Of a stretch of DNA of 38,376 bases, positions 287 to 29,885 are shown in pieces. The position numbers and the translations under genes were made by a program. Numbering within the stretch: position 1 is the stretch's first letter; every line of letters starts with the position of its first letter. Location of the stretch: positions 1 to 38,376 of the IMG/VR virus record IMGVR_UViG_3300033571_012668; one strand, written 5' to 3'. The notes beneath the pieces are model-generated. The model saw nothing but the letters and a program-made list of their open reading frames with translations. It had not been told where the DNA came from and ran no database searches. This DNA comes from a virus.

Positions 287-682
287 TTAAAAATCATAGT
301 CCACTAAGTCAATCATTCCTTGAACTGAGTCTAATGCGTCTCTTAAGTTAGTGTGTTTAGTCGTCTTCCAATGGAAGGGAGTCTTGCTGTTGTTTTTAAC
401 AACACTCTTTTTTCCAGGAGATTTTAGGTTTAACGAATCGCGTAATTCGTCTTCGTTCTGCCAACTGACCCTATCTCCCTTTAGGTTTCCGTCATTCCAT
501 TCTATTCGATAAAAGGTGTCGGATAGAAACATCATCTCTGCTCCGGGCCTGACTTCCATTGAGCCTGTTACATGAGCAGCATACAGCTTTTTCTTACCCT
601 TTTTAGGTTTACCCTTTATTAAAACGATTGCGTTGTGCTGAACGTTTTCGAATAATTGCTGAAATGAGATTATGTGTTTCAT
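287..682 (-). CDS. Hypothetical protein with N-terminal capsid-targeting-like motif
   Basis: 131 residues of unknown family. The N-terminus MKHIISFQQLFENV fits the motif shared by many proteins in this window: an aromatic residue, two polar residues, a hydrophobic pair, then Glu. It contains L-F-E, which matches the L/I-x-E pattern cut by T4 prohead protease. The rest is basic and polar, with a lysine-rich stretch (residues about 24-32) and a region resembling a small beta-rich domain (WNDGNLKGDRVSW). It is divergent from the gene at 728, and the 45-base gap holds ATAAATAA-type elements on both strands. Inferred role: a head-packaged or structural accessory protein. The gene is likely real; the function is not known. 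Confidence 0.65.
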   Translation of the reverse strand: MKHIISFQQLFENVQHNAIVLIKGKPKKGKKKLYAAHVTGSMEVRPGAEMMFLSDTFYRIEWNDGNLKGDRVSWQNEDELRDSLNLKSPGKKSVVKNNSKTPFHWKTTKHTNLRDALDSVQGMIDLVDYDF

Positions 683-688
683 ACTAGT

Positions 689-698
689 TTATTTATTA
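689..698 (-). promoter_or_regulatory. Late-promoter-like element before 682
   Basis: TAATAAATAA on the minus strand, 6 bases from the ATG. The spacing is shorter than at other sites, so this copy is less certain. Confidence 0.35.
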
Positions 699-703
699 GT
701 GAG

Positions 704-712
704 GATAAATAA
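704..712 (+). promoter_or_regulatory. Late-promoter-like element before 728
   Basis: GATAAATAA ends 15 bases before the TTG start. It resembles the T4 late promoter TATAAATA. A divergent copy lies just upstream. Confidence 0.5.
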
Positions 713-727
713 AACAAAACAATCGCT

Positions 728-1492
728 TTGAGTAGAGCAGCTAGTTTTAGAAACTTTATATTAGAAGATTTCGAGTATCACAAAGAGTTATGTCCTAAAA
801 TATGGGATGCTTCTGAAGAGACAGGCGGACAGTTTAGGATAAAACCTGAAATAAGAGAAAAGCTAATGGCGATCGCTAAAGACTTTTGGAGTTCTTTAAA
901 GCTAGAAGTAAAGGTGATTGATGTACAGTTAACGGGTTCACTCGCAAACTATAACTGGACAATGGCTTCAGACCTAGACGTTCACATCATAATAGACTTT
1001 GCGGAAGTAAATCCAGACATTGAGTTGGTTAGAAAGGCAATGGACGGGCAACGCTTCGTTTGGAACCTAAGACATCCAGTAATAATTAAGGGACACGACG
1101 TAGAATGCTACATTCAACACAAGGACGCACAGCATAGAGCATCCGGACTTTATTCTCTATTAAGAGACCGATGGATATCAGTTCCTTTCTACAATCCACC
1201 AGTCGTTGACGAAATGGATGTTAAGGAGAAATCTAGAGTAATAACAAAAGAGGTCAAAGAGATAAAGGCCAGATCAAAGTCGGCAACTGGTGAAAAGGCT
1301 AGAGAGCTATTAGACTATTTGGAGAGATTTAAGGCAAAGATAATGGCCGATCGTAAGTTCGGTCTCTATGACACAAAGGCTGGAGAATATTCAGTAGAGA
1401 ACCTAGTTTTTAAGGATCTTAGGAAAAACGGCACGCTAGAAGAGATCATTGATCTTGCATCAGACATATATTCAAAGATCTATTCTGAATAA
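728..1492 (+). CDS. Nucleotidyltransferase-fold protein with capsid-targeting-like N-terminus
   Basis: 254 residues, starting with TTG (no in-frame ATG gives the conserved N-terminus). Residues 70-71 (GS) followed by D82-x-D84 form the GS-x(n)-D-x-D signature of the DNA polymerase beta-like nucleotidyltransferase superfamily. E126 in DVECYIQ is a plausible third metal-binding carboxylate. The N-terminal residues SFRNFILEDF match the window's tag motif and contain I-L-E, so the enzyme may be packaged in the head and injected, as T4 Alt is. The C-terminal half is helical and basic, and could bind nucleic acid. A late-promoter-like GATAAATAA lies at 704-712. The substrate (tRNA, nucleotide or protein) cannot be told. 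The fold is fairly sure; packaging is inference. Confidence 0.7.
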   Translation: MSRAASFRNFILEDFEYHKELCPKIWDASEETGGQFRIKPEIREKLMAIAKDFWSSLKLEVKVIDVQLTGSLANYNWTMASDLDVHIIIDFAEVNPDIELVRKAMDGQRFVWNLRHPVIIKGHDVECYIQHKDAQHRASGLYSLLRDRWISVPFYNPPVVDEMDVKEKSRVITKEVKEIKARSKSATGEKARELLDYLERFKAKIMADRKFGLYDTKAGEYSVENLVFKDLRKNGTLEEIIDLASDIYSKIYSE

Positions 1493-1496
1493 ATAA
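1487..1496 (+). promoter_or_regulatory. Late-promoter-like element before 1513
   Basis: GAATAAATAA overlaps the stop codon of the nucleotidyltransferase gene and ends 16 bases before the ATG. Confidence 0.5.
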
Positions 1497-1512
1497 TAAA
1501 AAAATACAAAAC

Positions 1513-2280
1513 ATGTACAAGTATTTCGACTTTAAAAAGATATTCGAGGCAGATGACTCGATGATGCCAGAAGAAGGCATGAGCCCAACTACTTCTGAAC
1601 CTGAAATAAAAACAGTTGATCTTAAAAAGGCGAACGCTACAAGTAAGCTGCACCTGCTTCTTACTGGAACTGAGGTCGATCAATTAAAGACACAAGGTTT
1701 TTTAAACAAGACTGCTGAGTGGAAGGAGATCGATAATGAGACAAAGATCGTTCCCATGCAGGTTTCAATATACAACGCCGACTCGGGAAAACCTTCACCG
1801 ACCGTTGAAGACGGAGTGTTATCGTTGACCATAACTAATCAAAAGCTTGAAGACATTCTTTTAGGAATTGAGGGAGGTAGTACAGTAGAGACAGAAATCC
1901 CGTCAACTGATAAGACTCTAGAAGGTCAGCCGGTCAGAGTCGCTTTGACTAGAGAGATAGACGTGACTAGCGTAAAACCAGGAGAAATAGCTGTTCCTGC
2001 AAGCGCAGAACAACTAGCAGACGATGTCCCTGCTCCAACCGAAGGATCTCTTCCAGAATCATTTAGAAGTCTTATGAAGTTTGATGACTTCGTCAATGAG
2101 GCAAAGAAGAAGGATAAAGTTACTTCTGACATGATTGCTAAAGAATTAAGTAAGCTTAGCGGTAAAGACAAGGACAAGACGAAAGAAGGTCTTCAATTAA
2201 ACAAGAAGGACGCTAAGAAAAGAAAGCAATTGGTATTAGCTAAAAACCTAATGAAGGCTTCTGGAGCTAAGAAAAAATAA
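1513..2280 (+). CDS. Hypothetical protein with two capsid-targeting-like motifs
   Basis: 255 residues, no recognised family. The N-terminus MYKYFDFKKIFEADD contains I-F-E. A second copy of the motif, MKFDDFVNEA, lies at residues 188-197 and contains V-N-E. Between them is an acidic, beta-rich domain of about 150 residues ending in a Pro/Ala/Glu linker. After the second motif comes a strongly basic lysine-rich tail (residues about 198-255), which could bind DNA. This reads like a precursor with two processing tags: an acidic body and a basic DNA-binding piece. A late-promoter-like GAATAAATAA at 1487-1496 overlaps the stop of the upstream gene. The next gene starts only 7 bases downstream, so the two are probably co-transcribed. 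Confidence 0.7.
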   Translation: MYKYFDFKKIFEADDSMMPEEGMSPTTSEPEIKTVDLKKANATSKLHLLLTGTEVDQLKTQGFLNKTAEWKEIDNETKIVPMQVSIYNADSGKPSPTVEDGVLSLTITNQKLEDILLGIEGGSTVETEIPSTDKTLEGQPVRVALTREIDVTSVKPGEIAVPASAEQLADDVPAPTEGSLPESFRSLMKFDDFVNEAKKKDKVTSDMIAKELSKLSGKDKDKTKEGLQLNKKDAKKRKQLVLAKNLMKASGAKKK

Positions 2281-2287
2281 GAAAGAG

Positions 2288-2767
2288 ATGAGAATAAACG
2301 AATGTTCATGTGGATGTGGTGGAACCAGCACAGCATGTAAAGAAAAGGAATTAGACAGTTACATGTTCTTTGGGAACCTACAGATAATAAAGAGATCGAT
2401 TGATGCTTTGTTACAGATGAATCCTTCAGACGTAGATGCGATCTTAAATGACGGTCATGACTGGGCAGCAGATCACATAGCAACATCAAAGGATGACATC
2501 CAAGAAGTTGCTGACTTCTTCATTAATAAATCTGCTAGAAAGTCTCATTCAGGAGTAATGATGATGGGAGACGATCACCGCTTGATGGATACTCACGCTA
2601 TCAAGACATTTGAAAGCTTCTTATCTGAGAGCAAGAAGGCCAAATCGAAAAAAGACCAGGACGAAGACGGTGACAATGACTTTGCTGATGCTAGGATCGC
2701 ACAGTACATTGCTGGTGGAATGTCTAAGGCCGAAGCGATTAAGAAATCAAGAAGATTTAACAAGTAA
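2288..2767 (+). CDS. Hypothetical protein, Cys-rich N-terminus and internal capsid-targeting-like motif
   Basis: 159 residues. The N-terminus has a compact cysteine cluster (C6, C8, C10, C17) that could bind metal. The middle, around DGHDWAADHIATSKDD (residues about 55-70), reads as a conserved helical domain; I recall similar stretches in other phage proteins but cannot name the family. Residues 105-114 (IKTFESFLSE) are very close to the T4 capsid-targeting sequence MKTYQEFIAE. The C-terminus (DEDGDNDFADARIAQYIAGGMSKAEAIKKS) is an acidic turn plus a helix rich in Ala and Lys. The gene follows 1513-2280 by 7 bases and ends just before a strong bidirectional terminator. Confidence 0.7.
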   Translation: MRINECSCGCGGTSTACKEKELDSYMFFGNLQIIKRSIDALLQMNPSDVDAILNDGHDWAADHIATSKDDIQEVADFFINKSARKSHSGVMMMGDDHRLMDTHAIKTFESFLSESKKAKSKKDQDEDGDNDFADARIAQYIAGGMSKAEAIKKSRRFNK

Positions 2768-2783
2768 TCTCACAATACTTTAC

Positions 2784-2810
2784 AAAAAAGGAGCTCTTCG
2801 CTCCTTTTTT
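2784..2810. terminator. Bidirectional intrinsic terminator
   Basis: The stem AAAAAAGGAGC (2784-2794), loop TCTTC (2795-2799) and stem GCTCCTTTTTT (2800-2810) form a perfect 11-bp hairpin with an A tract on one side and a T tract on the other. It works in both directions and sits exactly between two convergent genes (2288-2767 plus, 2809-3033 minus). It is the only classical intrinsic terminator I found in the window. Confidence 0.9.
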
Positions 2811-3033
2811 ATTCATTTAACTTTCGGAAAGCCTTAATCTTTTCTAGAAGCTTGTCATCATGGTGGTCGAACCATCGTGTGTCCCTAATAGTTGCAGTCA
2901 AAAAGGAAGGAAGTTCAGCAGTTTCTTCTGGAGAAATGGTCCTATAACCTTTAGATACTTCTCTACCTTCTGAGTCAACTAGGTTTGATTCAAAATCAAA
3001 ACCAGTAACGCTAGTTATAAGCTGTCTATCCAT
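2809..3033 (-). CDS. Small hypothetical protein
   Basis: 74 residues starting at ATG (complement of 3031-3033). The sequence MDRQLITSVTGFDFESNLVD is followed by charged stretches and a helical, basic C-terminus (KLLEKIKAFRKLNE). No family is recognised and no signal peptide or membrane segment is visible. Its start overlaps the end of the upstream minus-strand gene (3026-3250) by 8 bases, suggesting translational coupling. Its stop codon lies inside the T tract of the bidirectional terminator. The coupling and tight fit support a real gene. Confidence 0.6.
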   Translation of the reverse strand: MDRQLITSVTGFDFESNLVDSEGREVSKGYRTISPEETAELPSFLTATIRDTRWFDHHDDKLLEKIKAFRKLNE

Positions 3034-3250
3034 TAGTCGCTCTTTTAAATAAACAAGTTTGACCGTGCCAGACTTCAGAGACTTCAGAGTTCATAGCGGC
3101 CCTCTCCATGTATGCCCTGACTGACTTTATCTTATCATAAACTAAAACGGCACCGTCCGTTCTAACTATCTTTACGGTCGCTCCTCCTTCTTCTAGGCTA
3201 AGGTCGTTTGACCTAAAACCGTCCGCTACTTTAATTTCTTTGTTCTCCAT
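3026..3250 (-). CDS. Small hypothetical protein
   Basis: 74 residues, ATG start. It begins MENKEIKVADGFRSNDLSLE and continues with a beta-rich stretch (ATVKIVRTDGAVLVYDKIKSV) that resembles a small barrel. No recognised family. It is the first gene of a two-gene minus-strand unit with 2809-3033 (8-base overlap). The upstream 59 bases are A/T rich and are shared with the divergent gene at 3310. I see no late-type ATAAATAA element on the minus strand here, so the pair may be expressed early. That is inference. Confidence 0.6.
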   Translation of the reverse strand: MENKEIKVADGFRSNDLSLEEGGATVKIVRTDGAVLVYDKIKSVRAYMERAAMNSEVSEVWHGQTCLFKRATNG

Positions 3251-3282
3251 GTGAGTTTTACTTTTTTAAGTTAATGTACCAA

Positions 3283-3291
3283 GATAAATAA
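3283..3291 (+). promoter_or_regulatory. Late-promoter-like element before 3310
   Basis: GATAAATAA in an intergenic region shared with a divergent gene, 18 bases before the ATG. It is not part of any stop codon, which supports a regulatory role. Confidence 0.55.
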
Positions 3292-3309
3292 CTAAAATAA
3301 TTATACAAA

Positions 3310-3912
3310 ATGCCAGGAAGAGTTTTAAACTTTTTTGAGTTTTCTGATAAGTATTCTAGCGGCGAGGCCACTGAGAAAGACTTGCAAGACGTGACAGCGG
3401 CTGCTGCTAACTTCACAGACGGTTTCGATGATTCGACTTACGATCAGCCTGAAATAAAGCCAAATCGACCAGTAAGCGGAGAATATGAAAGCACTCCAAC
3501 CCAACCTAACAGCTTTAATCCAGAAAGCTCTAAGGAAATGGCTGCACCTGTAGAAAAAACTGAACCTTCTGATGAGGAAGAGGACGACGACGACGATGAG
3601 GAAGACGATGACGACGAAGAAGGAAATCCAGAAGAAGGAAATCCAGAAGAGTCTAACGAGTCTCTTACTTACGCTAAGTCATTCAGCAACTACGTAAACG
3701 AAATGTATTCTGATTATTACCCAGAAGAAGAGGACCCAGAAGCAGAGATGCCATACACAATGGAACCTGATTCAACTATGGGACTTGATCCATATGCAGT
3801 AGACGGAGCGGATAGTTTTGGTTACTATCCAGAAGGAGAGGATGTATGTCCAGACTGTGGTGAAGACTACTTTGAAGACGAATATGGAGTCAACTGCGGT
3901 TGTAACATGTAA
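3310..3912 (+). CDS. Highly acidic protein with two capsid-targeting-like motifs and a zinc-ribbon-like end
   Basis: 200 residues, very acidic. The N-terminus MPGRVLNFFEFSDKY and an internal segment AKSFSNYVNEMY (residues 122-133, containing V-N-E) resemble the tag shared across the window. Residues 87-105 are an almost pure Asp/Glu tract. The C-terminus carries C180-x2-C183 and C196-x-C198 (CPDCG and CGC), a likely small zinc ribbon. The middle contains two exact 15-bp tandem copies. T4 prohead core proteins are also acidic and are cut by the prohead protease, so a scaffold or internal head role is possible. A late-promoter-like GATAAATAA lies at 3283-3291. No homologue is recognised with confidence. 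Confidence 0.7.
   Translation: MPGRVLNFFEFSDKYSSGEATEKDLQDVTAAAANFTDGFDDSTYDQPEIKPNRPVSGEYESTPTQPNSFNPESSKEMAAPVEKTEPSDEEEDDDDDEEDDDDEEGNPEEGNPEESNESLTYAKSFSNYVNEMYSDYYPEEEDPEAEMPYTMEPDSTMGLDPYAVDGADSFGYYPEGEDVCPDCGEDYFEDEYGVNCGCNM
3619..3648 (+). repeat. Two tandem 15-bp copies in an acidic coding tract
   Basis: GAAGGAAATCCAGAA occurs twice in tandem (3619-3633 and 3634-3648) and encodes two EGNPE pentapeptides directly after the Asp/Glu tract. Exact copies in coding sequence suggest recent slippage-type expansion. Confidence 0.85.
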
Positions 3913-3924
3913 AATCTAAACATT

Positions 3925-4536
3925 ATGGAAGAAATGTCAGCGATAATAGTCGCTTTTATCACTGGTGTATTAGGTCCAGTAATAGTGATGACTATAAAAT
4001 ACTTTATAGATAAAAAGTCCAAGAAAAAGGACATGATTGCTGACGCTTGTGAAGTTAGCGGAGCAGTAACGCTAAAGCTAGATGAGATAAAAGAAGAGTA
4101 TGGAGCAGACCGTGTATGGATAGCTCAATTCCACAACGGTGGTCACTTTTATCCTACTGGCAAGTCAATCGCCAAGTTCAGCGTCTTCTATGAGACAGTC
4201 GAAGTAGGCGTTTCTTCAATACAATCTAACCTACAGAACATTCCAGTAAACCTATTTAGTAAGTCCATAAATCACCTATTGAAGGATGATTTGATCCGTA
4301 TACCGGATTTTAAGGACGAGACTCAAGCAACTTACGGACTCAAGTATTTTGCAGAAGACAATGGAACTAAGTCCCAATACCTTTTTTCAATAAGAAGCAT
4401 AGACGGTAAATTCATAGGAGTATTCTCATTGGACTATACAAGAAGAAAGACTAGGCTTACTAACGAAGACATCATTGATTTAGAGATAAGTGCCGGTTCT
4501 CTTGGTGGAGTTCTAATGAATCATTTAACTCGATGA
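3925..4536 (+). CDS. Membrane-anchored GAF-like domain protein
   Basis: 203 residues. An N-terminal membrane segment spans about residues 6-28 (IIVAFITGVLGPVIVMTIKYF), followed by a lysine-rich cytoplasmic boundary (DKKSKKKD). The remaining 165 residues read as a GAF-type sensor fold: WIAQFHNGGHFYPTG in an early strand, then SQYLFSIRSIDGKFIGVFSLDY as the hairpin strands and a last helix. The pattern is typical of GAF domains but no ligand residues can be identified. No output domain follows, so it may bind a host partner or ligand at the inner membrane. It overlaps the next gene by an ATGA junction. Fold assignment is moderate; function unknown. Confidence 0.6.
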   Translation: MEEMSAIIVAFITGVLGPVIVMTIKYFIDKKSKKKDMIADACEVSGAVTLKLDEIKEEYGADRVWIAQFHNGGHFYPTGKSIAKFSVFYETVEVGVSSIQSNLQNIPVNLFSKSINHLLKDDLIRIPDFKDETQATYGLKYFAEDNGTKSQYLFSIRSIDGKFIGVFSLDYTRRKTRLTNEDIIDLEISAGSLGGVLMNHLTR

Positions 4537-4823
4537 AAAGAATAGTAGAAAACTTTAGAGAATTCATTGATCTGGCTAAGATAAACCAAGGACCAGACGG
4601 GTGGAGCATCTATGGTTCTAATCCTAAGAACAATGACCGTGAGATGATCGAAGGCGTCATTGAGATACTCAACAAAGTAAAAGACTTAGATAATAGAAGA
4701 TCGATCGCAGTCGATATGTTAGATAAGTTTAAAGAAGAAGGAGTTAAGGTAGATCACGATTCATTCATGAAATCATGTGGATTCTCCTCTAATAGTCGTC
4801 GTCATCGTCGTCAAACGAGATAG
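4533..4823 (+). CDS. Small helical protein with capsid-targeting-like N-terminus
   Basis: 96 residues. The start overlaps the upstream stop (ATGA), which decides the start site. The N-terminus MKRIVENFREFIDLAK resembles the window's tag. The core (DREMIEGVIEILNKVKDLDNRRSIAVDM, then KFKEEGVKVDHDSFMKSCGF) is a compact helical domain. I recall similar short proteins in other large T4-like phages but have no name for the family. The last 11 residues are basic (SNSRRHRRQTR) and arise from sequence that also codes antisense for a poly-Asp tail of the gene at 4789-5025. Confidence 0.65.
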   Translation: MKRIVENFREFIDLAKINQGPDGWSIYGSNPKNNDREMIEGVIEILNKVKDLDNRRSIAVDMLDKFKEEGVKVDHDSFMKSCGFSSNSRRHRRQTR

Positions 4824-5025
4824 CGCTAAGGGATTCAGATTCCCAATTCAATAGAACATCATCAAGTTCATCATCAACCATCAGTAGTATCTGTAGATAA
4901 TCAGGCTGTTGAGCTCCTCTGCTTAGCAAGATACGCTCTTTAATGGCTTCAGTCTTTTTCAAGATTGAAGATCTCAATTCTTCAATTACTGCTTCAGTCT
5001 TTTTATCATTCGCGTCTTTAGCCAT
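4789..5025 (-). CDS. Small hypothetical protein with poly-Asp tail
   Basis: 78 residues, ATG start (complement of 5023-5025). It is mostly helical and charged (MAKDANDKKTEAVIEELRSS, then LQILLMVDDELDDVLLNWE) and ends in six Asp and a Tyr. No family recognised. The 3' end overlaps the convergent gene 4533-4823 by 35 bases. The upstream region contains TATGTTTTG followed by TATAATCTTAT on the minus strand, which is also found before the gene at 14028, and may be its promoter. Likely real, but unnamed. Confidence 0.55.
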   Translation of the reverse strand: MAKDANDKKTEAVIEELRSSILKKTEAIKERILLSRGAQQPDYLQILLMVDDELDDVLLNWESESLSAISFDDDDDDY

Positions 5026-5034
5026 GGCAAACCT

Positions 5035-5060
5035 TTATAAGATTATATCGACAAAACATA
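5035..5060 (-). promoter_or_regulatory. Possible early promoter of 4789-5025
   Basis: On the minus strand: TATGTTTTG, then TCGA, then TATAATCTTAT. Almost the same order occurs on the plus strand at 13958-13978. A sigma-70-like TATAAT is included. It may mark an early promoter class. Confidence 0.4.
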
Positions 5061-5070
5061 AAAAGTTTTA

Positions 5071-5079
5071 GATAAATAA
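5071..5079 (+). promoter_or_regulatory. Late-promoter-like element before 5105
   Basis: GATAAATAA in the 79-base divergent intergenic region, 25 bases before the ATG. Confidence 0.55.
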
Positions 5080-5104
5080 ACTAAAGAAAAATAAGTCTAA
5101 TAAC

Positions 5105-5575
5105 ATGAAGAATTTTATGTCAATCAGAAAGTTGTATGAGGATTTTAATCCAGAAGACGCTGGACAAATGCCACAAGTACAGTCAATGGATCAGATGATG
5201 GCTCAGGAACCTATACAACCTGAAGAACAAATTGAAGCTGGTGCACAAGAAGAACCAGTTGAAATGCCAGCTGCTGAAGAGCCTAAAGCCCTCCCTGATT
5301 TTGACCCGATGAACTTGACAGTAGCTCAATTCATGGAAAGATGTGATAAGATAAATCCATTGGTTTGCATGGGACTTAAGAACTTTATCGAAGAAAATGG
5401 AGAAGCTCTTGCTGCTGAAGTAAACGGAGGAGAATCATTTGACTTAGACAAGGAAGCGAACTTAGACTTTCCACCTGCTGAAGGAACTGAACAGCCTGCT
5501 GATTTTTCTTTAGACCAACCTGCATCTGACCTTAACTTCCCACAAGCACAGAACGCACAAGCTGTTGAAATGTAA
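5105..5575 (+). CDS. Acidic hypothetical protein with capsid-targeting-like N-terminus
   Basis: 156 residues. The N-terminus MKNFMSIRKLYEDFNPE fits the tag motif and contains L-Y-E. A Met/Gln/Glu/Pro-rich low-complexity stretch (residues about 20-65) follows, then a short folded segment (LTVAQFMERCDKINPLVCMGLKNF) with two cysteines, and an acidic Ala/Pro/Asp tail. No enzymatic motif is visible. A late-promoter-like GATAAATAA at 5071-5079 precedes it by 25 bases. The gene opens a run of four small genes (5105-6582) in which three have N-terminal tags and one a C-terminal tag. Probably an internal head or scaffold protein; this is inferred only from the tag and composition. Confidence 0.65.
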   Translation: MKNFMSIRKLYEDFNPEDAGQMPQVQSMDQMMAQEPIQPEEQIEAGAQEEPVEMPAAEEPKALPDFDPMNLTVAQFMERCDKINPLVCMGLKNFIEENGEALAAEVNGGESFDLDKEANLDFPPAEGTEQPADFSLDQPASDLNFPQAQNAQAVEM

Positions 5576-5589
5576 AAACTTTCTGACTG

Positions 5590-5853
5590 ATGAAGAAGGC
5601 TAATGAATGGTATGGTGCAAACACGATGGGCACAGACGTTGACCATTTGATTCCTTCTCCCGACGAAAAGAGAGCAAATCACTTGATGTATACTGCTGGG
5701 ACCAGTACAACAATCCCTTCACATTGGAACAATTCTCCTTTTCTTAGCGGAGGAAGACTTACTAGTGCATTTGGTGCAAATCCAAAGGGTAAGAAAAAAG
5801 CCGTCATGAGTTACGAAGAGTTCTTGACAAGCAAGACTAAAAAGGATAAATAA
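5590..5853 (+). CDS. Small protein with C-terminal capsid-targeting-like motif
   Basis: 87 residues. The body is polar, with GANTMGTDVDHLIPSPDEKR and a Gly/Ser/Asn-rich middle and no predicted membrane segment. The C-terminus, VMSYEEFLTSKTKKDK (residues 72-87), matches the aromatic core of the window's tag (YEEFL next to the T4 sequence TYQEFIAE) but lacks the protease Glu. The tag is thus at the very end rather than the start. The stop codon overlaps a GATAAATAA element at 5845-5853 that may drive the next gene. It lies 14 bases after 5105-5575. No homologue recognised. Confidence 0.6.
   Translation: MKKANEWYGANTMGTDVDHLIPSPDEKRANHLMYTAGTSTTIPSHWNNSPFLSGGRLTSAFGANPKGKKKAVMSYEEFLTSKTKKDK
5845..5853 (+). 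promoter_or_regulatory. Late-promoter-like element before 5865
   Basis: GATAAATAA overlaps the end of the upstream gene (Asp-Lys-stop) and lies 11 bases before the ATG. Because those codons alone would give the same bases, this copy is weaker evidence. Confidence 0.35.
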
Positions 5854-5864
5854 CAAAAAAGGAT

Positions 5865-6131
5865 ATGGGATACATTCAGAACTTTACTAGCTTCACTAAC
5901 ACCGCTCAAAAAATGGTCAGTGAAGAGACTGATGTGATGTTGACTGATGCTACTCTAAAAGATCTGGATTCAAAGATACAAGCATACAAGAACCAGATAA
6001 ACCAGTGGGAGAGAGACATTGAGAATAGAAAAAAGGTTTTGGCTGAAGAAGCTGCTAAGAAACAAGCAGCAACTGCAAATCAGGCTGCTGCACAAGCTGC
6101 TCCAGCTGCGCCTGCCGCTCCTACTACTTAA
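5865..6131 (+). CDS. Small coiled-coil protein with Ala/Pro-rich tail
   Basis: 88 residues. The N-terminus MGYIQNFTSFTNTAQK has the aromatic spacing of the tag but no Glu in the expected place, so it is a weak match. Residues about 28-62 form a likely coiled coil (LKDLDSKIQAYKNQINQWER). The last 25 residues are Ala/Gln/Pro rich and resemble a flexible linker or tail. No family recognised. The gene is followed after 4 bases by 6136-6582 and preceded by a promoter-like element overlapping the upstream stop. Confidence 0.6.
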   Translation: MGYIQNFTSFTNTAQKMVSEETDVMLTDATLKDLDSKIQAYKNQINQWERDIENRKKVLAEEAAKKQAATANQAAAQAAPAAPAAPTT

Positions 6132-6135
6132 CTAA

Positions 6136-6582
6136 ATGGAAAGAAAGATAAAGACATATGATGATTTTGTTAATGAATCGACTAAAGAAGTGGTTTACCC
6201 TACTAATTTTAAAGGTATGGTACAAAGCGCCTTATCTGGACTTTATACTCAGATCATTGCCATAGCTCAAGAGCTAGCTAACGAAAAAGCGGCTAGAAAC
6301 CCAAATAGATATTCTGGTACGATCCAGGAGGTCGACATAACTAGGGCTATGAATATGATATTCCACAGCGATTGGAAGAAGAAGATTAAAGAGAGGGCAA
6401 TCGGAGACGTCTTACAGAATTCTATGAATAGAGCTGGAAAACAGGACGAAGTAATAGGAAAAAAGAACCTTAGAGCGTTAGGTCGTTCTAATGGGGACAA
6501 GGACTTTAACCTCGATATCGATAAGTCAAGCGTTAGATTTAGCGATAAGCGAGAAGGGACTGGCCCAGGTTCAAACCAATAA
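6136..6582 (+). CDS. Hypothetical protein with strong capsid-targeting-like N-terminus
   Basis: 148 residues. MERKIKTYDDFVNES at the N-terminus is one of the two closest matches in the window to the T4 internal-protein tag MKTYQEFIAE, with V-N-E at the expected cleavage point. The mature part would be a basic helical protein (MVQSALSGLYTQIIAIAQEL, then DWKKKIKERAIGDVL) ending in a polar, Asp/Ser/Lys-rich tail. A small basic protein made behind a cleaved tag is exactly the architecture of T4 internal proteins IPI to IPIII. It precedes structural genes (6591, 7335). Function of the mature protein is unknown. Confidence 0.7.
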   Translation: MERKIKTYDDFVNESTKEVVYPTNFKGMVQSALSGLYTQIIAIAQELANEKAARNPNRYSGTIQEVDITRAMNMIFHSDWKKKIKERAIGDVLQNSMNRAGKQDEVIGKKNLRALGRSNGDKDFNLDIDKSSVRFSDKREGTGPGSNQ

Positions 6583-7334: not shown

Positions 7335-7712
7335 ATGGCACAGCTTAGAGAGATTTACTTTAGGGATCAAAACGATCCTAAATATAGAGCCGATCAGGTT
7401 GAGGTTACTGATGACCTTGAGGCTACTATCCAACAGATCATGATGACGATCTTTACTAAGAAGGGAGAGGTTTTAGGAGAACCTAATTTCGGCCTAAACT
7501 TAGACAACTATCTCTTTGAATTTGATGTTGATCCGACCAGCCTAGGTAGAGCTGCACAAGACCAGATCTATAACTTTGTGGCTGAGACCAGAAAGAGAAG
7601 GATCACAGTGAAGCCTTCTCTTTATCCAGACTCAGTTTCAAACAGGGACATCTTAGTCTTGTTGATAGACATCCCTGAAATAAAGGAAAAGATTGCTGCT
7701 TTCTACGACTAG
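7335..7712 (+). CDS. 25: Baseplate wedge protein, gp25-like
   Basis: 125 residues, the usual length of the gp25/GpW-type baseplate family. The signature E49-P-N-F-G53 (EPNFGLNLDNYLFE) corresponds to the conserved EPR-x-G stretch of this family, followed by a helix that ends in REtrKRRI-type residues and a final strand. In T4, gp25 forms the core of the baseplate wedge together with gp6 and gp53, and it shares its fold with type VI secretion TssE. A gp53-like gene lies at 35717 in the same window. AATAAATAA at 7321-7329 overlaps the upstream stop, only 5 bases before the ATG. The gene converges with 7709-8089 with a 4-base overlap. Confidence 0.9.
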   Translation: MAQLREIYFRDQNDPKYRADQVEVTDDLEATIQQIMMTIFTKKGEVLGEPNFGLNLDNYLFEFDVDPTSLGRAAQDQIYNFVAETRKRRITVKPSLYPDSVSNRDILVLLIDIPEIKEKIAAFYD

Positions 7713-8129: not shown

Positions 8130-9848
8130 TTAAAGCTGACCTGCTCCAGCGGTTTCGCCTCCTTCTTTAGTCTCACTACCGCCTGCTTCTGCTGGTGCTG
8201 CTGCTCCGCCTGCCGCTGCTCCACCTGCCGGTGGCGCTGCTGGTGCGCCTGGTGCTGCTCCTGCTGCTGGTGGCATCTCAACTTCAATGTCTAGTTTCTG
8301 TTCAAACCATTGTTGGTTAGATTCGATTTCACTCTCAGTCAACTTAAGCTCTTTTCTAACTAAGTATTCGGTAGAGAAGAATGGTGTACCGTCATCGTTC
8401 ATGACTCCTTTCTTAGCTTGGAATGCTGCGATTCGTTTAGCTTCGATATCGTTTTGTTTAGCTTCTTCGAAGATGTTATCGTTGTTATAAGTTATCCCGA
8501 TTGCATTGTTAAACTTATAATCATCTCCTAATTCTGGAAAGTCTAAGCACATTTGCAAGTACCAAGGTTTTACTAGCATTTCAGAGAATGCTGATCTTAG
8601 TCTTCTAATGAATTTCTGATATCTGACTTCCTCCCTTGTGATACCTTCTGCGTTTAGGGTAAATGCACCCATACCGCTCTGTCCTTCCCAACGTGAATAA
8701 GGAATCTTGGAGTCCATCTTTAATTTCTTATAGAAGTAATTTAAGAGTTCAGAACCAGAAAGGTTTGGACCAGGGGTCTGTAATGCTTCGATCTTGATCT
8801 GTTGCTGTTGGTCGTTTACTGGCATAACATAGTTCTTATAGAACATGATGTTCGGTTTACCGTCAACGTTTAGCTCACCAGTATCTCCATTAAAGTAGAT
8901 GTCTTCTTTAAATAAGTTTAGGAATTCACGAACGTCTTCTTGTCCTTTTTGAAAGCTTTTACTTCCGATTGGAACTGTTGTAGTTAACCTGATTGGAGCG
9001 TTCATAACGTGCCAAATTACCTTACTGTGTTCGATTATTCTTAAAAGGTTAAACGATCTGATCAACCTTTCAACAAAACTAACTCGTTTTGTTCTAAAAT
9101 GGTTGGCGTAAGATATGTAGATGACTTGTGAGTCGTTTAGGATTCTAGTTGCACCGTTTGATGGATCGTATTGTACCCACTGTAAGAAAAGCTTTCCTTT
9201 AGGATCCTTTTGTAACTGTGGAGCAATACTAGCTGGGTCGATCTCTTTGAAACCTATGATCTCTTTAGGTTTATCTAAATTATCGTAAAGAACTTCAAAA
9301 GAAAGGTGACCTTCTACTAGGAACTGGAATGCGTATTGCCATGCAGCTATCCCTTCTCCGAATCCCCAAGCAGTATAAATCTTTTCAAAGTTGTCGTTGT
9401 ATTTGTCAAGTACTGCCTTTTGATAATGTAGTCTCTCTTCCTTGTTGTCTCCCCTATAAAGAAGCTTACCTGTCATGTCCTTTGCGTATGCGAATCTACT
9501 CTCTTCATCATAGACTATCATGTCATCGACGATTGTTTCTAGAATGAATTCGATTTCGCCATTGGACGCAACGTCCCTTAGTCTTTCTCTTTTAACGACA
9601 TAATCTAATTGAAAGAAGGCAATGGCCTTTGTTCTTAGTTGGGAAGTAGTATCAGCTATCGCCATTGAGAACTTCATGAGCTCGTCGTTAGCGCTTAGCC
9701 TTGTGCTTCTTGCTTGTAGCTGGCCTTCGATAAAACCAATTGCTTGTGAGTTTCTAAGAAGAAGGTCCTCATGTCGAGTACCGAACTTACTTAGGCCGGC
9801 TAGTGTTCCTCCAACCTTTCCTTTTGATGTGTCTAAAAATCCAGCCAT
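8130..9848 (-). CDS. 20: Portal vertex protein, gp20-like
   Basis: 572 residues (T4 gp20 is 524). Segments typical of the T4-type portal family are visible: EFILETIVDDMIVYDEESRF near the N-terminus, the stem region VFERLIRSFNLLRIIEHSKVIW, and the C-terminal part with KLKMDSKIPYSRWEG, GITREEVRYQKFIRRLRS and LVKPWYLQMCLDFPEL. The portal forms the dodecameric ring for DNA packaging and tail joining. The last 37 residues or so are an Ala/Pro/Gly/Glu low-complexity tail that T4 lacks. In T4 the portal gene is followed by prohead core, protease and major capsid genes; here none of these follow, so head genes are dispersed. A gp4-like gene lies two genes upstream. Confidence 0.9.
   Translation of the reverse strand: MAGFLDTSKGKVGGTLAGLSKFGTRHEDLLLRNSQAIGFIEGQLQARSTRLSANDELMKFSMAIADTTSQLRTKAIAFFQLDYVVKRERLRDVASNGEIEFILETIVDDMIVYDEESRFAYAKDMTGKLLYRGDNKEERLHYQKAVLDKYNDNFEKIYTAWGFGEGIAAWQYAFQFLVEGHLSFEVLYDNLDKPKEIIGFKEIDPASIAPQLQKDPKGKLFLQWVQYDPSNGATRILNDSQVIYISYANHFRTKRVSFVERLIRSFNLLRIIEHSKVIWHVMNAPIRLTTTVPIGSKSFQKGQEDVREFLNLFKEDIYFNGDTGELNVDGKPNIMFYKNYVMPVNDQQQQIKIEALQTPGPNLSGSELLNYFYKKLKMDSKIPYSRWEGQSGMGAFTLNAEGITREEVRYQKFIRRLRSAFSEMLVKPWYLQMCLDFPELGDDYKFNNAIGITYNNDNIFEEAKQNDIEAKRIAAFQAKKGVMNDDGTPFFSTEYLVRKELKLTESEIESNQQWFEQKLDIEVEMPPAAGAAPGAPAAPPAGGAAAGGAAAPAEAGGSETKEGGETAGAGQL
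8140..8278 (-). repeat. Ala/Gly/Pro low-complexity coding tract in portal C-terminus
   Basis: A GCT/GGT/CCT-rich stretch encodes runs of Ala, Pro and Gly (PAAGAAPGAPAAPPAGGAAA) at the end of the portal. Simple-codon repeats of this kind also end the protein encoded at 5865-6131. It may be a flexible tail facing the capsid interior. Confidence 0.7.
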
Positions 9849-10505: not shown

Positions 10506-11009
10506 TTACACCTTATTGAACAGAAAGTTTTCGGTTATTATCCCGAATCGCATGTTATTCTTGGTTGCATGCACTCTAGCAGCCTTAAACTTTGCAGTGT
10601 TTATTAAGTACTGCTTAGCGTGTCTAGCATAATTAAGGGTCTGCTTCTCAGTAAGTCGTTTGGGTTCCTCAGGTGGGCTCAAATACTTATTGGGTTTGAT
10701 CTCAATCAGCCATTTAGTTATGACTCCTTCAGGGCTCTTTGTTGCCATGTAACAGTCTACCCAATATGTGCTTTCCTTTTTTAAGATGGGATTCCAATAG
10801 GGAATCCCTACTGGTTCTGATGCATATTCAATAACGCTATCAGTATTATCGCAATAGACAAGAAACTTAAGTTCCCAACTAGATCGATAGATTATTTTGG
10901 TGATGTCGCCTTTGTACTTATCTGGGTTTTGAGGAGTAAAATATCCCTGCTTAACCTTACCACGTTGCGGTTTTAAGAAATCATGGATGTCTCTGCTCTC
11001 CTTTGCCAT
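10506..11009 (-). CDS. 4: Head completion protein, gp4-like (nuclease-fold)
   Basis: 167 residues (T4 gp4 is about 150). The stretch NPDKYKGDITKIIYRSSWEL (residues 28-47) is characteristic of T4 gp4 (also called gp50 or 65). Later residues D85 (YWVDCY) and E103-I-K105 (WLIEIKPNK) match a PD-(D/E)xK-type nuclease core. In T4, gp4 is needed to complete filled heads before tail joining. It is followed by the unknown 9850-10497 and the portal gene, and preceded by a small acidic tagged protein. Operon position fits head morphogenesis. Strong family call; catalytic activity is not proven. Confidence 0.85.
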   Translation of the reverse strand: MAKESRDIHDFLKPQRGKVKQGYFTPQNPDKYKGDITKIIYRSSWELKFLVYCDNTDSVIEYASEPVGIPYWNPILKKESTYWVDCYMATKSPEGVITKWLIEIKPNKYLSPPEEPKRLTEKQTLNYARHAKQYLINTAKFKAARVHATKNNMRFGIITENFLFNKV

Positions 11010-11015
11010 CTTAGA

Positions 11016-11330
11016 TTAACCTATGTGCTTTGCGATAAATTCGTCTGCTGCTTGAGGATCGATCGATCCCATTTCAACAAGCTTCAATACTAAAGAAGCG
11101 ATCGCTAGGTTCTCAGGAACGTCTCCTTCAGATATTTCGACTTCGCCTTTTTCGAAGGCTTTTGCCAAGTCATCATACGCTTCAGATGCAGCAGCCTCGA
11201 TGTCTTCTTCAGAACCGACTATTTCTACTAGTTCATCCAAGATGGAGGTGTCTATGTCTAATGAGTCAGCCTCAGCTGCTTCATTGACCTTTTTAGCGAA
11301 GAACTGTCTTATTGACAAGATCCTATTCAT
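11016..11330 (-). CDS. Small acidic protein with capsid-targeting-like N-terminus; possible prohead core protein
   Basis: 104 residues. The N-terminus MNRILSIRQFFAKKVNEAAE includes an aromatic core and V-N-E, matching the window's tag. The rest is strongly acidic and helical (ILDELVEIVGSEEDIEAAAS, then KAFEKGEVEISEGDVPENL). T4 prohead core proteins gp67 and gp68 are small, acidic and processed, and sit beside the portal gene. This gene is in a comparable place, upstream of gp4-like and portal genes. That is an analogy, not a sequence match. A late-promoter-like GAATAAATAA lies at 11348-11357 on this strand, 17 bases before the start. Confidence 0.65.
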   Translation of the reverse strand: MNRILSIRQFFAKKVNEAAEADSLDIDTSILDELVEIVGSEEDIEAAASEAYDDLAKAFEKGEVEISEGDVPENLAIASLVLKLVEMGSIDPQAADEFIAKHIG

Positions 11331-14656: not shown

Positions 14657-15430
14657 ATGGCAAATCGCAAAAACAAATTTAGCAAGGAAGAGCAGGAAGA
14701 GTTTGAACTCTGGAGCCAAGAAAGAAGCGAAGTAAACTTAAACAGGACTCTACTATCAAATAAGATAGAGATAAAGTGTAAGTCTAAAGCACAAAAGGAC
14801 GCGATAAACGCCATAGAAGACAAGATAATATCAATCATAACCGGACCTCCAGGAACTGGTAAGACTTATCTTTCTTGTGCTAGGGCTTTAAAGTTCTTAA
14901 AAGAAGACGGAGGCACTTATAAAAAGATCGTCTTGATAAAATCGGTCAACGTTCCTAAGGACGAGGAGATCGGTTACTTAAAAGGTACTCTTGAGGAGAA
15001 GATGGAGATGTACATGTACCCATTCATCTCTAACTTTCAAAAGGTAATCGGTAAACCTGCAGTAGAGACGCTAAAGGCAAACGGTTGCATTGAGATCCTT
15101 CCGATAAAGTTCGCATTAGGAGTGACTCTTGACGACGCGATCATAATCATAGATGAGGCTCAACAGATCTCAAAAGATAACTTAAGGACCTTAATCACTA
15201 GGATCGGTCAAAACGCCAAGATGGTTTTCTTGGGAGACATCAAACAAAAATCAGTAAACAAGAGGGAGAAGAGTGCCTTAGAGATTCTAATCGAACACTT
15301 TGCAAAAATCGAAGAGATTGGAATAGTTGAGCTTGGTAAAGAAGACATCGTAAGACATCCTATCATCAAGAAATTAGAAGAAATATTTGATGAGATAGAG
15401 CAGTCCGAGAAACTTAACGGAAATAAATAA
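14657..15430 (+). CDS. phoH: PhoH-like ATPase
   Basis: 257 residues, typical for the single-domain phage PhoH family. Walker A is G63-P-P-G-T-G-K69-T70; Walker B is I162-I-I-I-D166-E167-A-Q; a sensor-like LGDIKQKS follows, and the C-terminal region carries DIVRHPIIKKL. PhoH proteins are ATPases common in large phages; their role is unclear, possibly in RNA metabolism or phosphate stress. It follows 14028-14654 after 2 bases. Its stop codon overlaps AAATAAATAA (15421-15430), which may be the promoter of the envelope operon downstream. Function of the family is only partly known. Confidence 0.9.
   Translation: MANRKNKFSKEEQEEFELWSQERSEVNLNRTLLSNKIEIKCKSKAQKDAINAIEDKIISIITGPPGTGKTYLSCARALKFLKEDGGTYKKIVLIKSVNVPKDEEIGYLKGTLEEKMEMYMYPFISNFQKVIGKPAVETLKANGCIEILPIKFALGVTLDDAIIIIDEAQQISKDNLRTLITRIGQNAKMVFLGDIKQKSVNKREKSALEILIEHFAKIEEIGIVELGKEDIVRHPIIKKLEEIFDEIEQSEKLNGNK
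15421..15430 (+). promoter_or_regulatory. Late-promoter-like element before the envelope operon
   Basis: AAATAAATAA overlaps the end of the PhoH gene (Asn-Lys-stop) and ends 18 bases before the ATG at 15449. It is the only such element before the nine-gene run, so the run may be one late transcript. Confidence 0.45.
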
Positions 15431-15448: not shown

Positions 15449-17359
15449 ATGAAAAAACTGTTAATTTTATTAACATTGGTGTGCGCCGTTTTTGTCGGCT
15501 ACTCACAAACGGGACCTCCCGCCCCAAGCAACGGGGTATGGGCCATTATTGATACCAACTATCAAGTAGGTCCGACTTCAACTGGGCATACTCAAGCTCG
15601 ACTTACTCTTAAAAATACTACCTTAACTAAATACGCAGGTGTTCAGTTTAGAGTTTTTTACGATAACGTTGCTTTTACTAATGCCACAGTTGCTCTATTG
15701 GGATCCAATGCAAACTTGGATTTTCAATACTCTACAAACACGGCAAACGGTTACATCACAATGACTCTAGTCTATACTGGAGCCAGTGCTACCTATACTT
15801 TAGTAGATGGCGAAAGGTTTGAAATAGACTTTACGCATGCAGTTGAAGCGACTTTTAATAACTTACCTTCAATTTCTAACTTGACTTGGACTGGTGCACA
15901 GGCCTATTCTCCATATGCTGCCAAGCAGGACGGTATTGATACTACCTTAAACCTTCATAACTATGGAGGACAGTTCGAGTTTCAACAACTATCCTTTCAT
16001 GGAACATTCGTTAACACGACTGGAACACCGGCAAAGAATCTTAGTTTAGCCTTAGAAAGAAAGCCATATAACAGTAACACTTGGGCACAACACTCAACTT
16101 ACTTGACTGACATAAATGGTGACTTTAACTTTACTGTAAACTTAGACACTTCTTATTGGGACGTTCGTTTGGCAATCCAAGGAGACTCGATGGATGTAGG
16201 TAACGTAATCACCGCGACCGATGCACAATTGATAAACCAATGGGTGTTAGGAATAGCTACTCCTTCAGGATTCGACTTCTTTACTGCAGACGTTAACAAT
16301 TCAAACAACGTCACCATATCTGATGTATGGGGAGTATTCGGTAGAGTTTCTGGTAGATTCTCACAATGGCCGAATAACGTTAAAGACATCAAGTTCTTTA
16401 CGCCTGCTGAATACACAGCAATCAACGGCTCAGCTAACAACTTGACTGCTACTTATGCTGGGGTAACTAACTGGTACCACAACATCCTAGCAGGTCAACC
16501 TGATTCTATCGTAAGATACGTATTGGTTCCTGGTGATGCCAACGGTACTGGTTACAACATGGCTCGCCAAATCCCTATTGAGATCCTAATTGATCCTACT
16601 CCTGGAATAGAGTCACAAGTATATCACGTGATCGATCATTCAGTAGAATATGACTTTCCTACTGAGAGCATTGAAGTAAACGTTCCTAGATTATCAGTAG
16701 ACGCAGGAAGTCTAGTAAACCTACCGGTAAAAGTTTTCACAAACGGTGTAGACCTAGCTTCATTACAGTTTGGTCTTATCTACGATCCTGAAGTATTAGA
16801 GTTTAAGGGAATCTTCTCTAACTCTAACGCGATGAAGTGGATAACTTACGTAAACCCAAATGACGGTCAAGTCGATTGGGGAGGATATGATCCTACTAAC
16901 GTAGAGAATCCTATCAAGGACGGTGAAGAAGTAGTAAACCTACAGTTTCTAGCGCTTCAACCACAAGACGAATGGTTAGAAAGCCCGCTCTATACTACTA
17001 GAAAATTCGCAGGAGACGTTTCATCTAGCGACCTTAGTCTAACTCCGACTAACGGAATACTTCAAGTATTGAAGGCAGTAGGCGCTGGAGTGATTGATGA
17101 TAACTCAATCGAATTGTTTCCTAATCCATTTAATGAAGAGGTGACTATGACCTTTAAGGTGAATGCGATGACTGATGCTACACTAGCGGTATACGACATA
17201 TATGGAAAAAAAATAGTAACTGTCCTTTCAGGCCCTCTACCTGAGGGACAGTTTACATACACAACTAATCTTGGAAAACTAGCAGATGGAATCTATGTTG
17301 TGACTTTAACGTCAGACAACGAGACTCCGCTCTTTGAAAAGATAGTAAAACAAAAATAA
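15449..17359 (+). CDS. Exported cohesin/dockerin-like protein with T9SS C-terminal sorting domain
   Basis: 636 residues. Signal peptide 1-19 (cut after YSQ, Bacteroidota style). Residues about 28-150 resemble a cohesin-like beta sandwich (GVQFRVFYDNVAFTN). Residues 180-245 are a carboxypeptidase-regulatory-like or SD-type module. Residues 246-303 are dockerin-like, with two EF-hand-type segments (MDVGNVITATDAQLINQWVL and ADVNNSNNVTISDVWGVFGR). A second cohesin-like domain lies at 407-540 (NLPVKVFTNGVDLASLQFGL, YDPEVLEF). Residues 551-636 are a clear type A T9SS sorting domain (LFPNPFNEEV, VYDIYGKKI, ADGIYVVTL). Such domains direct export through the outer membrane and attachment to the surface. 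It heads the envelope operon. A phage gene with this domain implies a T9SS-bearing host. Domain calls: T9SS and dockerin strong, cohesin moderate. Confidence 0.85.
   Translation: MKKLLILLTLVCAVFVGYSQTGPPAPSNGVWAIIDTNYQVGPTSTGHTQARLTLKNTTLTKYAGVQFRVFYDNVAFTNATVALLGSNANLDFQYSTNTANGYITMTLVYTGASATYTLVDGERFEIDFTHAVEATFNNLPSISNLTWTGAQAYSPYAAKQDGIDTTLNLHNYGGQFEFQQLSFHGTFVNTTGTPAKNLSLALERKPYNSNTWAQHSTYLTDINGDFNFTVNLDTSYWDVRLAIQGDSMDVGNVITATDAQLINQWVLGIATPSGFDFFTADVNNSNNVTISDVWGVFGRVSGRFSQWPNNVKDIKFFTPAEYTAINGSANNLTATYAGVTNWYHNILAGQPDSIVRYVLVPGDANGTGYNMARQIPIEILIDPTPGIESQVYHVIDHSVEYDFPTESIEVNVPRLSVDAGSLVNLPVKVFTNGVDLASLQFGLIYDPEVLEFKGIFSNSNAMKWITYVNPNDGQVDWGGYDPTNVENPIKDGEEVVNLQFLALQPQDEWLESPLYTTRKFAGDVSSSDLSLTPTNGILQVLKAVGAGVIDDNSIELFPNPFNEEVTMTFKVNAMTDATLAVYDIYGKKIVTVLSGPLPEGQFTYTTNLGKLADGIYVVTLTSDNETPLFEKIVKQK
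17218..17253 (+). other. Strong hairpin inside the T9SS domain coding sequence
   Basis: Arms 17218-17225 and 17246-17253 (AACTGTCC/GGACAGTT) and 17228-17232 and 17240-17244 (TCAGG/CCTGA) pair to give 13 bp, with a 2 by 1 internal loop and a 7-base loop. No T tract follows, so it is not a normal terminator. It could pause transcription, process the message or be chance codon choice. Confidence 0.55.
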
Positions 17360-25722: not shown

Positions 25723-26208
25723 CTATCCTACAAAGTCTATGAACTTATAATAGTTTGAGTTCATTTGGAAGTGATCGTCGTTTTCCATATCGTCCTTACT
25801 CAATGAAGTGATGATCTCGTTTCCTAAGTCAGTAGATGAACCGTCTGCAAAATAGTACTTTGCATACTCGTCGCCTTGACCAGCAACCACCATTGCCTTT
25901 ATCTTGTACTTCTCATACATCTTAGGTATCGATTCCACAAAAGCAGGCTCATCGTCTAGTTTTATGAAGACTGATGGGTAACCTATGAGAGTACCGTTCT
26001 TAGAAAGAAAGGCAGTCTGCTTAACGTTAGTGTGATTGAAAAACATTTTTGACTTTGCCTTTGAATAACTGTCCTTGTTTAGGAACACGATTATTGCGAA
26101 GGGCAGTCGATTTTGTATTGTGTCTCTAAGCTCTTGCCAAGAAGGAGCAAAGCTTTCCTTGTCCTCTTCTTTAGAGAAATCTTCAAACAATTTAAGGTAT
26201 TTAGTCAC
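25723..26208 (-). CDS. Hypothetical protein with capsid-targeting-like N-terminus
   Basis: 161 residues, GTG start (complement of 26206-26208). MTKYLKLFEDFSKEED fits the tag motif and contains L-F-E. The rest looks like a mixed alpha/beta domain (LPFAIIVFLNKDSY, FIKLDDEPAFVE, YKIKAMVVAGQGDEYAKYYF). No family is recognised. A late-promoter-like GATAAATAA (26229-26237 on the minus strand) lies 20 bases before the start in the divergent region shared with the HAD gene. Under the tag hypothesis it would be head-packaged. Confidence 0.62.
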   Translation of the reverse strand: MTKYLKLFEDFSKEEDKESFAPSWQELRDTIQNRLPFAIIVFLNKDSYSKAKSKMFFNHTNVKQTAFLSKNGTLIGYPSVFIKLDDEPAFVESIPKMYEKYKIKAMVVAGQGDEYAKYYFADGSSTDLGNEIITSLSKDDMENDDHFQMNSNYYKFIDFVG

Positions 26209-29842: not shown

Positions 29843-29851
29843 TTTCTTTGA

Positions 29852-29865: not shown

Positions 29866-29885
29866 AAAAAAAATCCTAGCTTCCG

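Follow-up and report, generated by a model that had tools for sequence, protein, structure and literature searches.

Short, probable T4-like capsid-targeting tags on many otherwise unrelated proteins of a jumbo phage

Tagged genes of the window

The DNA analyzed here, a 38,376-base IMG/VR fragment (IMGVR_UViG_3300033571_012668, hereafter the window), comes from an uncultured, T4-related jumbo phage. In a sequence-only reading, at least nine proteins encoded between positions 287 and 6582 had been proposed to carry a short motif, or tag, resembling the T4 capsid-targeting sequence (CTS) MKTYQEFIAE. Tags in this region were picked by eye and then checked on orthologues. Ten of the 14 genes counted there are tagged (287, 728, 1513, 2288, 3310, 4533, 5105, 5590, 5865 and 6136, each named by its lowest coordinate), and two copies each in 1513 and 3310 bring the region total to 12 copies; genes 2809, 3026, 3925 and 4789 are untagged. 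Four further tagged genes (11016, 25723, 27449 and 31665) lie in the same window beyond this region. The three strings that had been quoted are present as residues 6-14 of 6136-6582 (KTYDDFVNE), residues 106-114 of 2288-2767 (KTFESFLSE) and residues 190-197 of 1513-2280 (FDDFVNEA). The tags are N-terminal, internal or C-terminal, and follow two spacings, [FY]xx[FYW][ILV]xE (class A) and [FLI]xx[LI][FY]E (class B). The tagged genes, with lengths in amino acids (aa), are:

287..682, minus strand: 131-aa protein, N-terminal class-B tag SFQQLFEN (aa 6-13; 644-667), ATAAATA box upstream
728..1492, plus strand: nucleotidyltransferase-like protein with a TTG start, N-terminal tag SFRNFILED (aa 6-14; 743-769)
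1513..2280, plus strand: 255-aa protein, N-terminal class-B tag DFKKIFEA (1528-1551); second, internal class-A tag KFDDFVNEA (2077-2103) ahead of a Lys-rich tail
2288..2767, plus strand: 159-aa protein, internal tag TFESFLSES (aa 107-115; 2606-2632), held-out profile p=0.0005
3310..3912, plus strand: acidic 200-aa protein, N-terminal Glu-less aromatic-pair tag NFFEFSDK (3328-3351; profile and orthologues); second, internal tag SFSNYVNEM (3679-3705)
4533..4823, plus strand: 96-aa protein, N-terminal Glu-less tag NFREFIDLA (4551-4577), aromatic pair retained
5105..5575, plus strand: acidic 156-aa protein, N-terminal class-B tag SIRKLYED (5120-5143), cross-validated 9.7 bits
5590..5853, plus strand: 87-aa protein, C-terminal Glu-less tag SYEEFLTSK (5809-5835), pW=0.028
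5865..6131, plus strand: 88-aa protein, N-terminal tag NFTSFTNTA (5880-5906), Glu mostly absent
6136..6582, plus strand: 148-aa mainly helical protein, N-terminal tag TYDDFVNES (6154-6180)
11016..11330, minus strand: 104-aa protein, N-terminal tag variant SIRQFFAKKVNEA (11277-11315), by orthologue comparison
25723..26208, minus strand: 161-aa protein, N-terminal tag LFEDFSKEE (26164-26190), held-out profile 15.8 bits
27449..27979, plus strand: 176-aa protein, N-terminal tag KFSQFVNEA (27464-27490), held-out profile 16.9 bits
31665..33698, plus strand: 677-aa protein with tag-like ends (SFAEYLNQW, NALFEA; C-terminal SFGDFLKDK)

Apart from the tag, the 14 proteins are as dissimilar as had been claimed: the lowest pairwise BLASTP E value among them is 0.014, and that alignment spans the tag. 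The aliphatic-x-Glu end (L/I/V-x-E), which most copies had been said to hold, is present in 8 of the 12 region copies; it is missing from the 3310 N-terminal copy, 4533, 5590 and 5865.

Across orthologues the aromatic pair is near-invariant while the remaining sequence varies. For the internal tag of 1513, the positions read F in 8/8, F in 8/8, V/L in 8/8 and E in 7/8, and the rest of the protein averages a conservation of 0.49. In a 28-sequence alignment of the 6136 family (45-93% identity to 6136), Glu14 is invariant and Phe11 and Asn13 are kept in at least 90%. The tag Glu is retained in 8/8 distinct orthologue matches of 287 and in 23/23 orthologues of 5105, and 10/10 members of the 27449 family are tagged. 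Where Glu is rare or absent (5865, 4533, 5590 and the 3310 N-terminus), the pair nevertheless stays: both Phe residues are found in 14/14 orthologues of 5865, with Glu in 1/14; the 4533 orthologues have F/Y in 17/17 and F in 17/17, with no Glu among the residues listed at its position; and the pair is retained in 5590 orthologues. The orthologue of 728 in related contig G006 begins MSRAVSFRNFLLED, and that of 31665 in the same contig terminates MNFGDFLKEK. Gene 31665 is the weakest tagged member, and its profile score is not significant.

Matches for the cluster proteins in PHROGs and Pfam are mostly to unknowns. Gene 728 matches PF01909 at E 0.0013, which is below the cut-off, and phrog_36119 at E 3.6e-35. 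The AlphaFold model of the 6136 family is of moderate confidence (predicted local distance difference test score, pLDDT, 68.7), and its fold search returned one match at E <= 0.001, an uncharacterized relative with 76% identity. Past its internal tag, the C-terminal part of 2288-2767 contains DQDEDGDNDFADARIAQYIAGGMSKAEA, which resembles an EF-hand-type calcium loop. The product of 31665-33698 is rich in Lys and Glu, has no PHROG match and precedes the baseplate genes.

Tag enrichment in related contigs and cultured phages

Taken alone, the window gives a weak signal with a strict regular expression: 2/48 proteins match in their first 40 aa (shuffles: mean 0.46, max 3). De novo motif discovery was then applied, with no pattern supplied, to the first 35 residues of 559 family representatives from the window and nine related contigs. 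It returned the N-terminal motif [KN][YH][ILV]Kx[FY]xx[FW][VIL], with a log-likelihood of 309; three shuffles gave 172-182, and mid-protein segments gave 218. In five-fold cross-validation, 45/556 families scored at least 10 bits vs. 1.7 N-terminal shuffles, 0 reversed sequences and 1/429 mid segments; at 8 bits or more the counts were 60/556 vs. 7.2, 10 and 5/429, respectively. A profile trained without the window families still found 6136, 5865, 25723 and 27449 (p<0.001), as well as the internal copies of 2288 (p value listed above) and 1513 (p=0.003). Class A occurs within residues 2-22 of 65/1192 proteins of the ten clade contigs vs. 3.3 expected, and the second spacing, [FYLI]xx[LI][FY]E, in 28/1192 vs. 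5.1 expected. The sequence-only reading had named a motif profile and a comparison with shuffled proteins among the means of judging the tag, and both bear it out. The tag marks about one-tenth of the phage proteins.

At 8 bits or more, cross-validated, the window itself has 7/48 tagged proteins vs. 0.6 expected, a count that excludes 728 (TTG start) and 4533, both missed by the gene caller. The corresponding values are 18/206 vs. 2.5 in G001, 12/87 vs. 0.7 in G012 and 14/147 vs. 1.7 in G003, and the lowest of the ten contigs is G008, with 5/99 vs. 1.4. Internal and C-terminal copies are in excess genome-wide, but an internal excess is seen in control phages as well, and this line of evidence was set aside; since the internal excess is not clade-specific, support for internal and C-terminal copies comes from orthologue conservation. 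Of 20 long tagged proteins, 3 received a functional hint from Pfam. Two tagged relatives (L097:10558-11823 and L125:2726-3529) carry peptidoglycan-binding (PG_binding_1) and cell-wall hydrolase (Hydrolase_2) domains; both are enzymes of lysis type that bear a head tag.

Mutagenesis of the T4 IpIII tag, in the available part of its description, assigns residues 4 and 7 to targeting and residues 8 and 10 to processing; Asp at position 10 blocks processing and leaves targeting intact, and the gp21 protease follows the cut rule L/I-x-E (PMC9026906). In MKTYQEFIAE these positions are Tyr4, Phe7, Ile8 and Glu10, and the window tags have the identical spacing of aromatic, aromatic, aliphatic and Glu, so that the likeness to T4 that had been noted falls on the very positions defined by mutagenesis (PMC9026906). 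Among the marks of a T4-type CTS, the N-terminal targeting aromatics (4 and 7) and a tag common to unrelated proteins are present here; aliphatic-x-Glu (8 and 10) is present in the same 8 of 12 region copies and absent from 4.

The four-position rule was applied, fixed, to residues 2-22 of called proteins. In T4 it picks 3/223 proteins, namely IpII, IpIII and gp61.1. The uncultured phage LR756500 has 20/529 matching N-termini vs. 2.2 expected (400 of 462 kb read), and Chryseobacterium phage MA9V-2 has 4/246 vs. 0.6. Elsewhere the counts are 2/279 in PTm1, 0/267 in PAU, 0/163 in HTVC008M and 6/261 in P-SSM2, two of the last being tag-like. The T4 gp61.1 gene (AF158101 18966-19130) encodes a 54-aa hypothetical protein beginning MKTFKEFIKED, and from its sequence is a candidate for an unrecognized T4 internal head protein. 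In MA9V-2, a cultured phage, an 82-aa hypothetical protein encoded between portal and protease (L216:6688-6936) starts MKTFTYFINEA and ends NFVNE; its gene occupies the place of T4 gp67/gp68.

The cultured Sphingomonas phage PAU served as a proxy for a virion. A sister tag, MKx[LI]xx[LM][YF]E, starts 19 of its 267 called open reading frames (ORFs), and the second spacing [FYLI]xx[LI][FY]E is found in 21/267 vs. 1.4 expected. Four of the five PAU genes labelled 'internal capsid protein' are tagged (gp142, gp154, gp199 and gp270; Fisher p 9e-5); the label is taken from the record notes, which give no basis for it. The PAU major capsid protein has 585 residues, and 520 when processed (PMC5646251, available part). 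The acidic protein gp155 (L145:10256-11002), encoded just 5' of the major capsid gene, contains SFRNFLLENA, which is nearly the 728 tag SFRNFILED, and may be the true scaffold of PAU.

The T4 late promoter TATAAATA has ATAAATA as its core (PMC1524935, available part). This box lies upstream of 51/97 tagged vs. 188/992 untagged genes, 98 genes of middling score having been set aside, and in most cases its distance to the start is 12-26 bases. When each family is represented once (median of 50 draws), the proportions are 23/46 vs. 69/459 (p 4e-7, worst 9e-6), and the reverse-complement control shows no excess (6/97 tagged vs. 70/992 untagged). In the window the box is found at 14/49 genes, 10 of which are tagged:

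705..711, 1489, 3284, 5072, 5846, 27425 and 31640, plus strand: ATAAATA boxes upstream of tagged genes
690, 11349 and 26230, minus strand: ATAAATA boxes upstream of tagged genes (as TATTTAT)

Protease, scaffold-like array and gene context

The sequence-only reading had also made a gp21-like protease in the genome a point on which it would stand or fall. An S77 (gp21-type) prohead protease is above the Pfam cut-off in 12 of 16 large related contigs; the 38-kb window fragment itself holds none. A profile of ten homologues matches solved T4 gp21 (PDB 5jbl, E 1.4e-5), and LDHP/VDHP (LNHP in T4) and SSR are retained in all nine full-length rows of the ten-homologue fusion alignment. We take the His of DHP and the Ser of SSR to be the catalytic residues, consistent with both being Ala in the PDB 5jbl chain.

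The protease forms the first part of an ORF of ~660 aa that continues with an array and then a C-terminal domain. The array consists of about eleven exact 14-residue units, e.g., INYSEYIKENLNNS, and four of the ten aligned homologues have one additional heptad, as a coiled coil would allow. Among distinct units, 82/90 carry in register the pattern aromatic-xx-aromatic-aliphatic-x-Glu, with the spacing of the tag (His counted as aromatic). Column permutation of unit vs. tag gave p 0.021 with 20 letters, and 0.0057 and 0.0008 with ten classes, the column range of the last having been picked afterwards. The distant LR756500 fusion has a similar, more degenerate array. The place beside the major capsid gene and the 14-residue period with its heptad insertion would fit a gp22-type scaffold, while the AlphaFold helix at 289-441 is of low confidence (mean pLDDT 43); the fusion is called scaffold-like here. 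In five contigs (G001, G002, G003, G008 and G009) a conserved gene of 551-567 codons lies 3' of the fusion; we regard it as the major capsid gene because of where it lies and because its start, WKP[VIL]LE, resembles that of T4 gp23. Directly 5' of the fusion, a DnaJ-like gene is found in 5/5 of these contigs, which suggests a head-assembly chaperone. In G012, whose portal is 84% identical to that of the window, a single contig holds tagged genes, the portal (28502-30226) and the protease fusion (55509-57485).

The relatives were collected with the window portal as query: 80 relatives of it in viral contigs were kept, several of these contigs being >100 kb. The nearest named records, at 30-38% identity, are the uncultured 462-kb LR756500, other uncultured megaphages, the Prevotella phages Lak and Tenacibaculum phage PTm1, so that a Bacteroidota host is likely. 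Moraphages are an aquatic Bacteroidota phage lineage, and the available part of their description makes no mention of tags (PMC12619734). Other genes of the window are:

8130..9848, minus strand: portal protein, gp20 type (phrog_213, E 2.8e-56)
10506-11009: head closure gene (PHROG match)
7335-7712: baseplate gp25-like gene (PHROG match)
14657-15430: PhoH gene (PHROG match)

Surprisingly for a T4-type phage, 29886-31451 strongly matches phrog_1745, annotated 'DNA transfer protein' (E 8e-156), and also shows metallophosphoesterase similarity. The 636-aa protein of 15449-17359 looks secreted, and its C-terminus may be a sorting domain of Bacteroidota type IX secretion, which it resembles.

Probable head loading, alternatives and known systems

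We consider it highly likely that this phage, T4-related and probably infecting Bacteroidota, loads many proteins into its procapsid by means of short T4-CTS-like tags. The interpretation of the sequence-only reading is supported at the level of sequence, and the system is very probably an enlarged member of the T4 capsid-targeting system. In the proposed mechanism, the tagged genes would be transcribed late, and the aromatic pair, three residues apart, would dock each protein onto the assembling core. The S77 prohead protease would cut at aliphatic-x-Glu and trim the tag at maturation; tags without Glu would serve loading and escape trimming. By the T4 mutagenesis results, cargo of this Glu-less kind is predicted to be packed into the head and left uncut. 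The presence of the tagged proteins in the virion, their cutting after Glu, their docking on the core and any injection are inferred.

Several observations weigh against head loading. Glu is missing from 4/12 region copies; PAU gp70 is labelled an internal capsid protein, yet has no tag; and the excess of internal copies extends outside the clade (T4, 14 vs. 7.2; PTm1, 18 vs. 8.7). With a 14-column profile run on the T4 proteins, the internal proteins fell outside the top 12 matches, presumably because their tag lies too close to the N-terminus for the profile width. No protease is found in the window or in 4/16 contigs, all of them fragments, and the sources used hold no virion proteome for this lineage.

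If the tags were merely cut sites of the prohead protease, with another feature bringing the proteins into the head, the L/I/V-x-E of 8/12 region copies, which matches the gp21 rule L/I-x-E (PMC9026906), would be accounted for, as would a scaffold array likewise full of such sites. A pure cut site, however, fails to explain why 5865, 4533, 5590 and the 3310 N-terminus lack Glu and yet keep the aromatic pair in nearly every case, and in T4 it is the aromatic pair that does the targeting (PMC9026906); we regard this explanation as improbable. Still less probable is a destination in another part of the virion or in the infected cell (tail or baseplate, membrane, replication compartment). Tagged genes do lie by tail and connector genes (6136 adjoins 6591 and 7335, and 31665 is near 35717), and the two relatives with PG_binding_1 and Hydrolase_2 domains would fit such a site, but 6591, 7335 and 35717 themselves have low tag scores, the match to the T4 head-targeting residues is clear, MA9V-2 has its tag on a small gene between portal and protease, and the tagged PAU genes are labelled internal capsid. 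Many proteins have amphipathic N-termini with abundant Lys, Ile and Phe, and the enrichment could in principle be a generic feature of AT-rich phages. This we hold to be extremely unlikely: the same test gives 0/267 in PAU, 2/279 in PTm1 and 0/163 in HTVC008M, N-terminal shuffles preserve composition, and orthologue conservation picks out the four positions.

What the tag would dock on is a separate matter. In this lineage the protease is the N-terminal domain of the scaffold-like core protein, whose coiled-coil array repeats the tag code about eleven times; a cargo tag may therefore dock like an additional unit of the scaffold and be processed along with it. We tentatively propose, at somewhat below even confidence, that cargo tags mimic one scaffold unit, the fusion being a ladder of about eleven targeting units, each tagged protein a rung, and both being cut at the same Glu. 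Under this proposal loss of Glu would split loading from cutting and give classes of cut and uncut cargo, a corollary we hold with equal reserve. The likeness could equally be a coincidence, tag and unit both being amphipathic helices and L-x-E being abundant in this set of proteins, and we see this as an evenly balanced prospect. Scanning arrays with the tag profile scored no better than shuffles, and the unit profile found no clear tag excess over shuffles in the window and most contigs; Tyr and Ala are favoured in units where Phe and Asn are favoured in tags. Coincidence is opposed by the in-register pattern of most distinct units and by the column permutation values given above, the lowest again with its range chosen afterwards.

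Head loading by tag would give a sequence rule that predicts, among hundreds of uncharacterized proteins of large phages of Bacteroidota and of a 462-kb megaphage, those that travel in the head; these would be candidates for delivery to the host as soon as infection begins. A restriction inhibitor and an ADP-ribosyltransferase are among the T4 internal proteins so delivered (PMC9026906). Scaffold mimicry, if true, would answer the old question of what the T4 CTS binds. A literature search found no description of such a tag set or scaffold array, most subscription papers being outside its coverage.

Among known systems, in the giant Salmonella phage SPN3US and phages of the phiKZ type a prohead protease likewise processes numerous internal head proteins, cutting behind Glu; in contrast, their propeptides are mostly >100 residues, with no short common tag and no confirmed gp22 counterpart in the available part of the account (PMC5694885). 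In phage P1, the N-terminal signal of DarB suffices to carry a reporter into the head; the available part of that study reports no N-terminal consensus among Dar proteins (PMC9024508), whereas the window tags have a clear one. As with the PAU internal capsid proteins (MK[TS][LI]xxL[YF]E...), many small unrelated proteins share one N-terminal tag ending in L-x-E, and the PAU tagged genes adjoin portal, protease and major capsid genes, as here; PAU differs in having class-B spacing only and in the annotation of its protease and scaffold as two genes, gp151 and gp152. With the T4 IpII/IpIII system of gp21 and gp22 are shared the four positions, their spacing, the mainly N-terminal placement, unrelated cargo behind a common tag, late-promoter-like boxes and, in the relatives, an S77 protease. 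Unlike T4, where a handful of proteins are tagged, about one-tenth are tagged here; copies also lie internally and at the C-terminus, there is a second spacing, some variants lack Glu, and the protease is fused to a scaffold-like protein that repeats the code. The new elements are (i) the size of the tagged set; (ii) the Glu-less class; and (iii) the scaffold-like array repeating the tag code.

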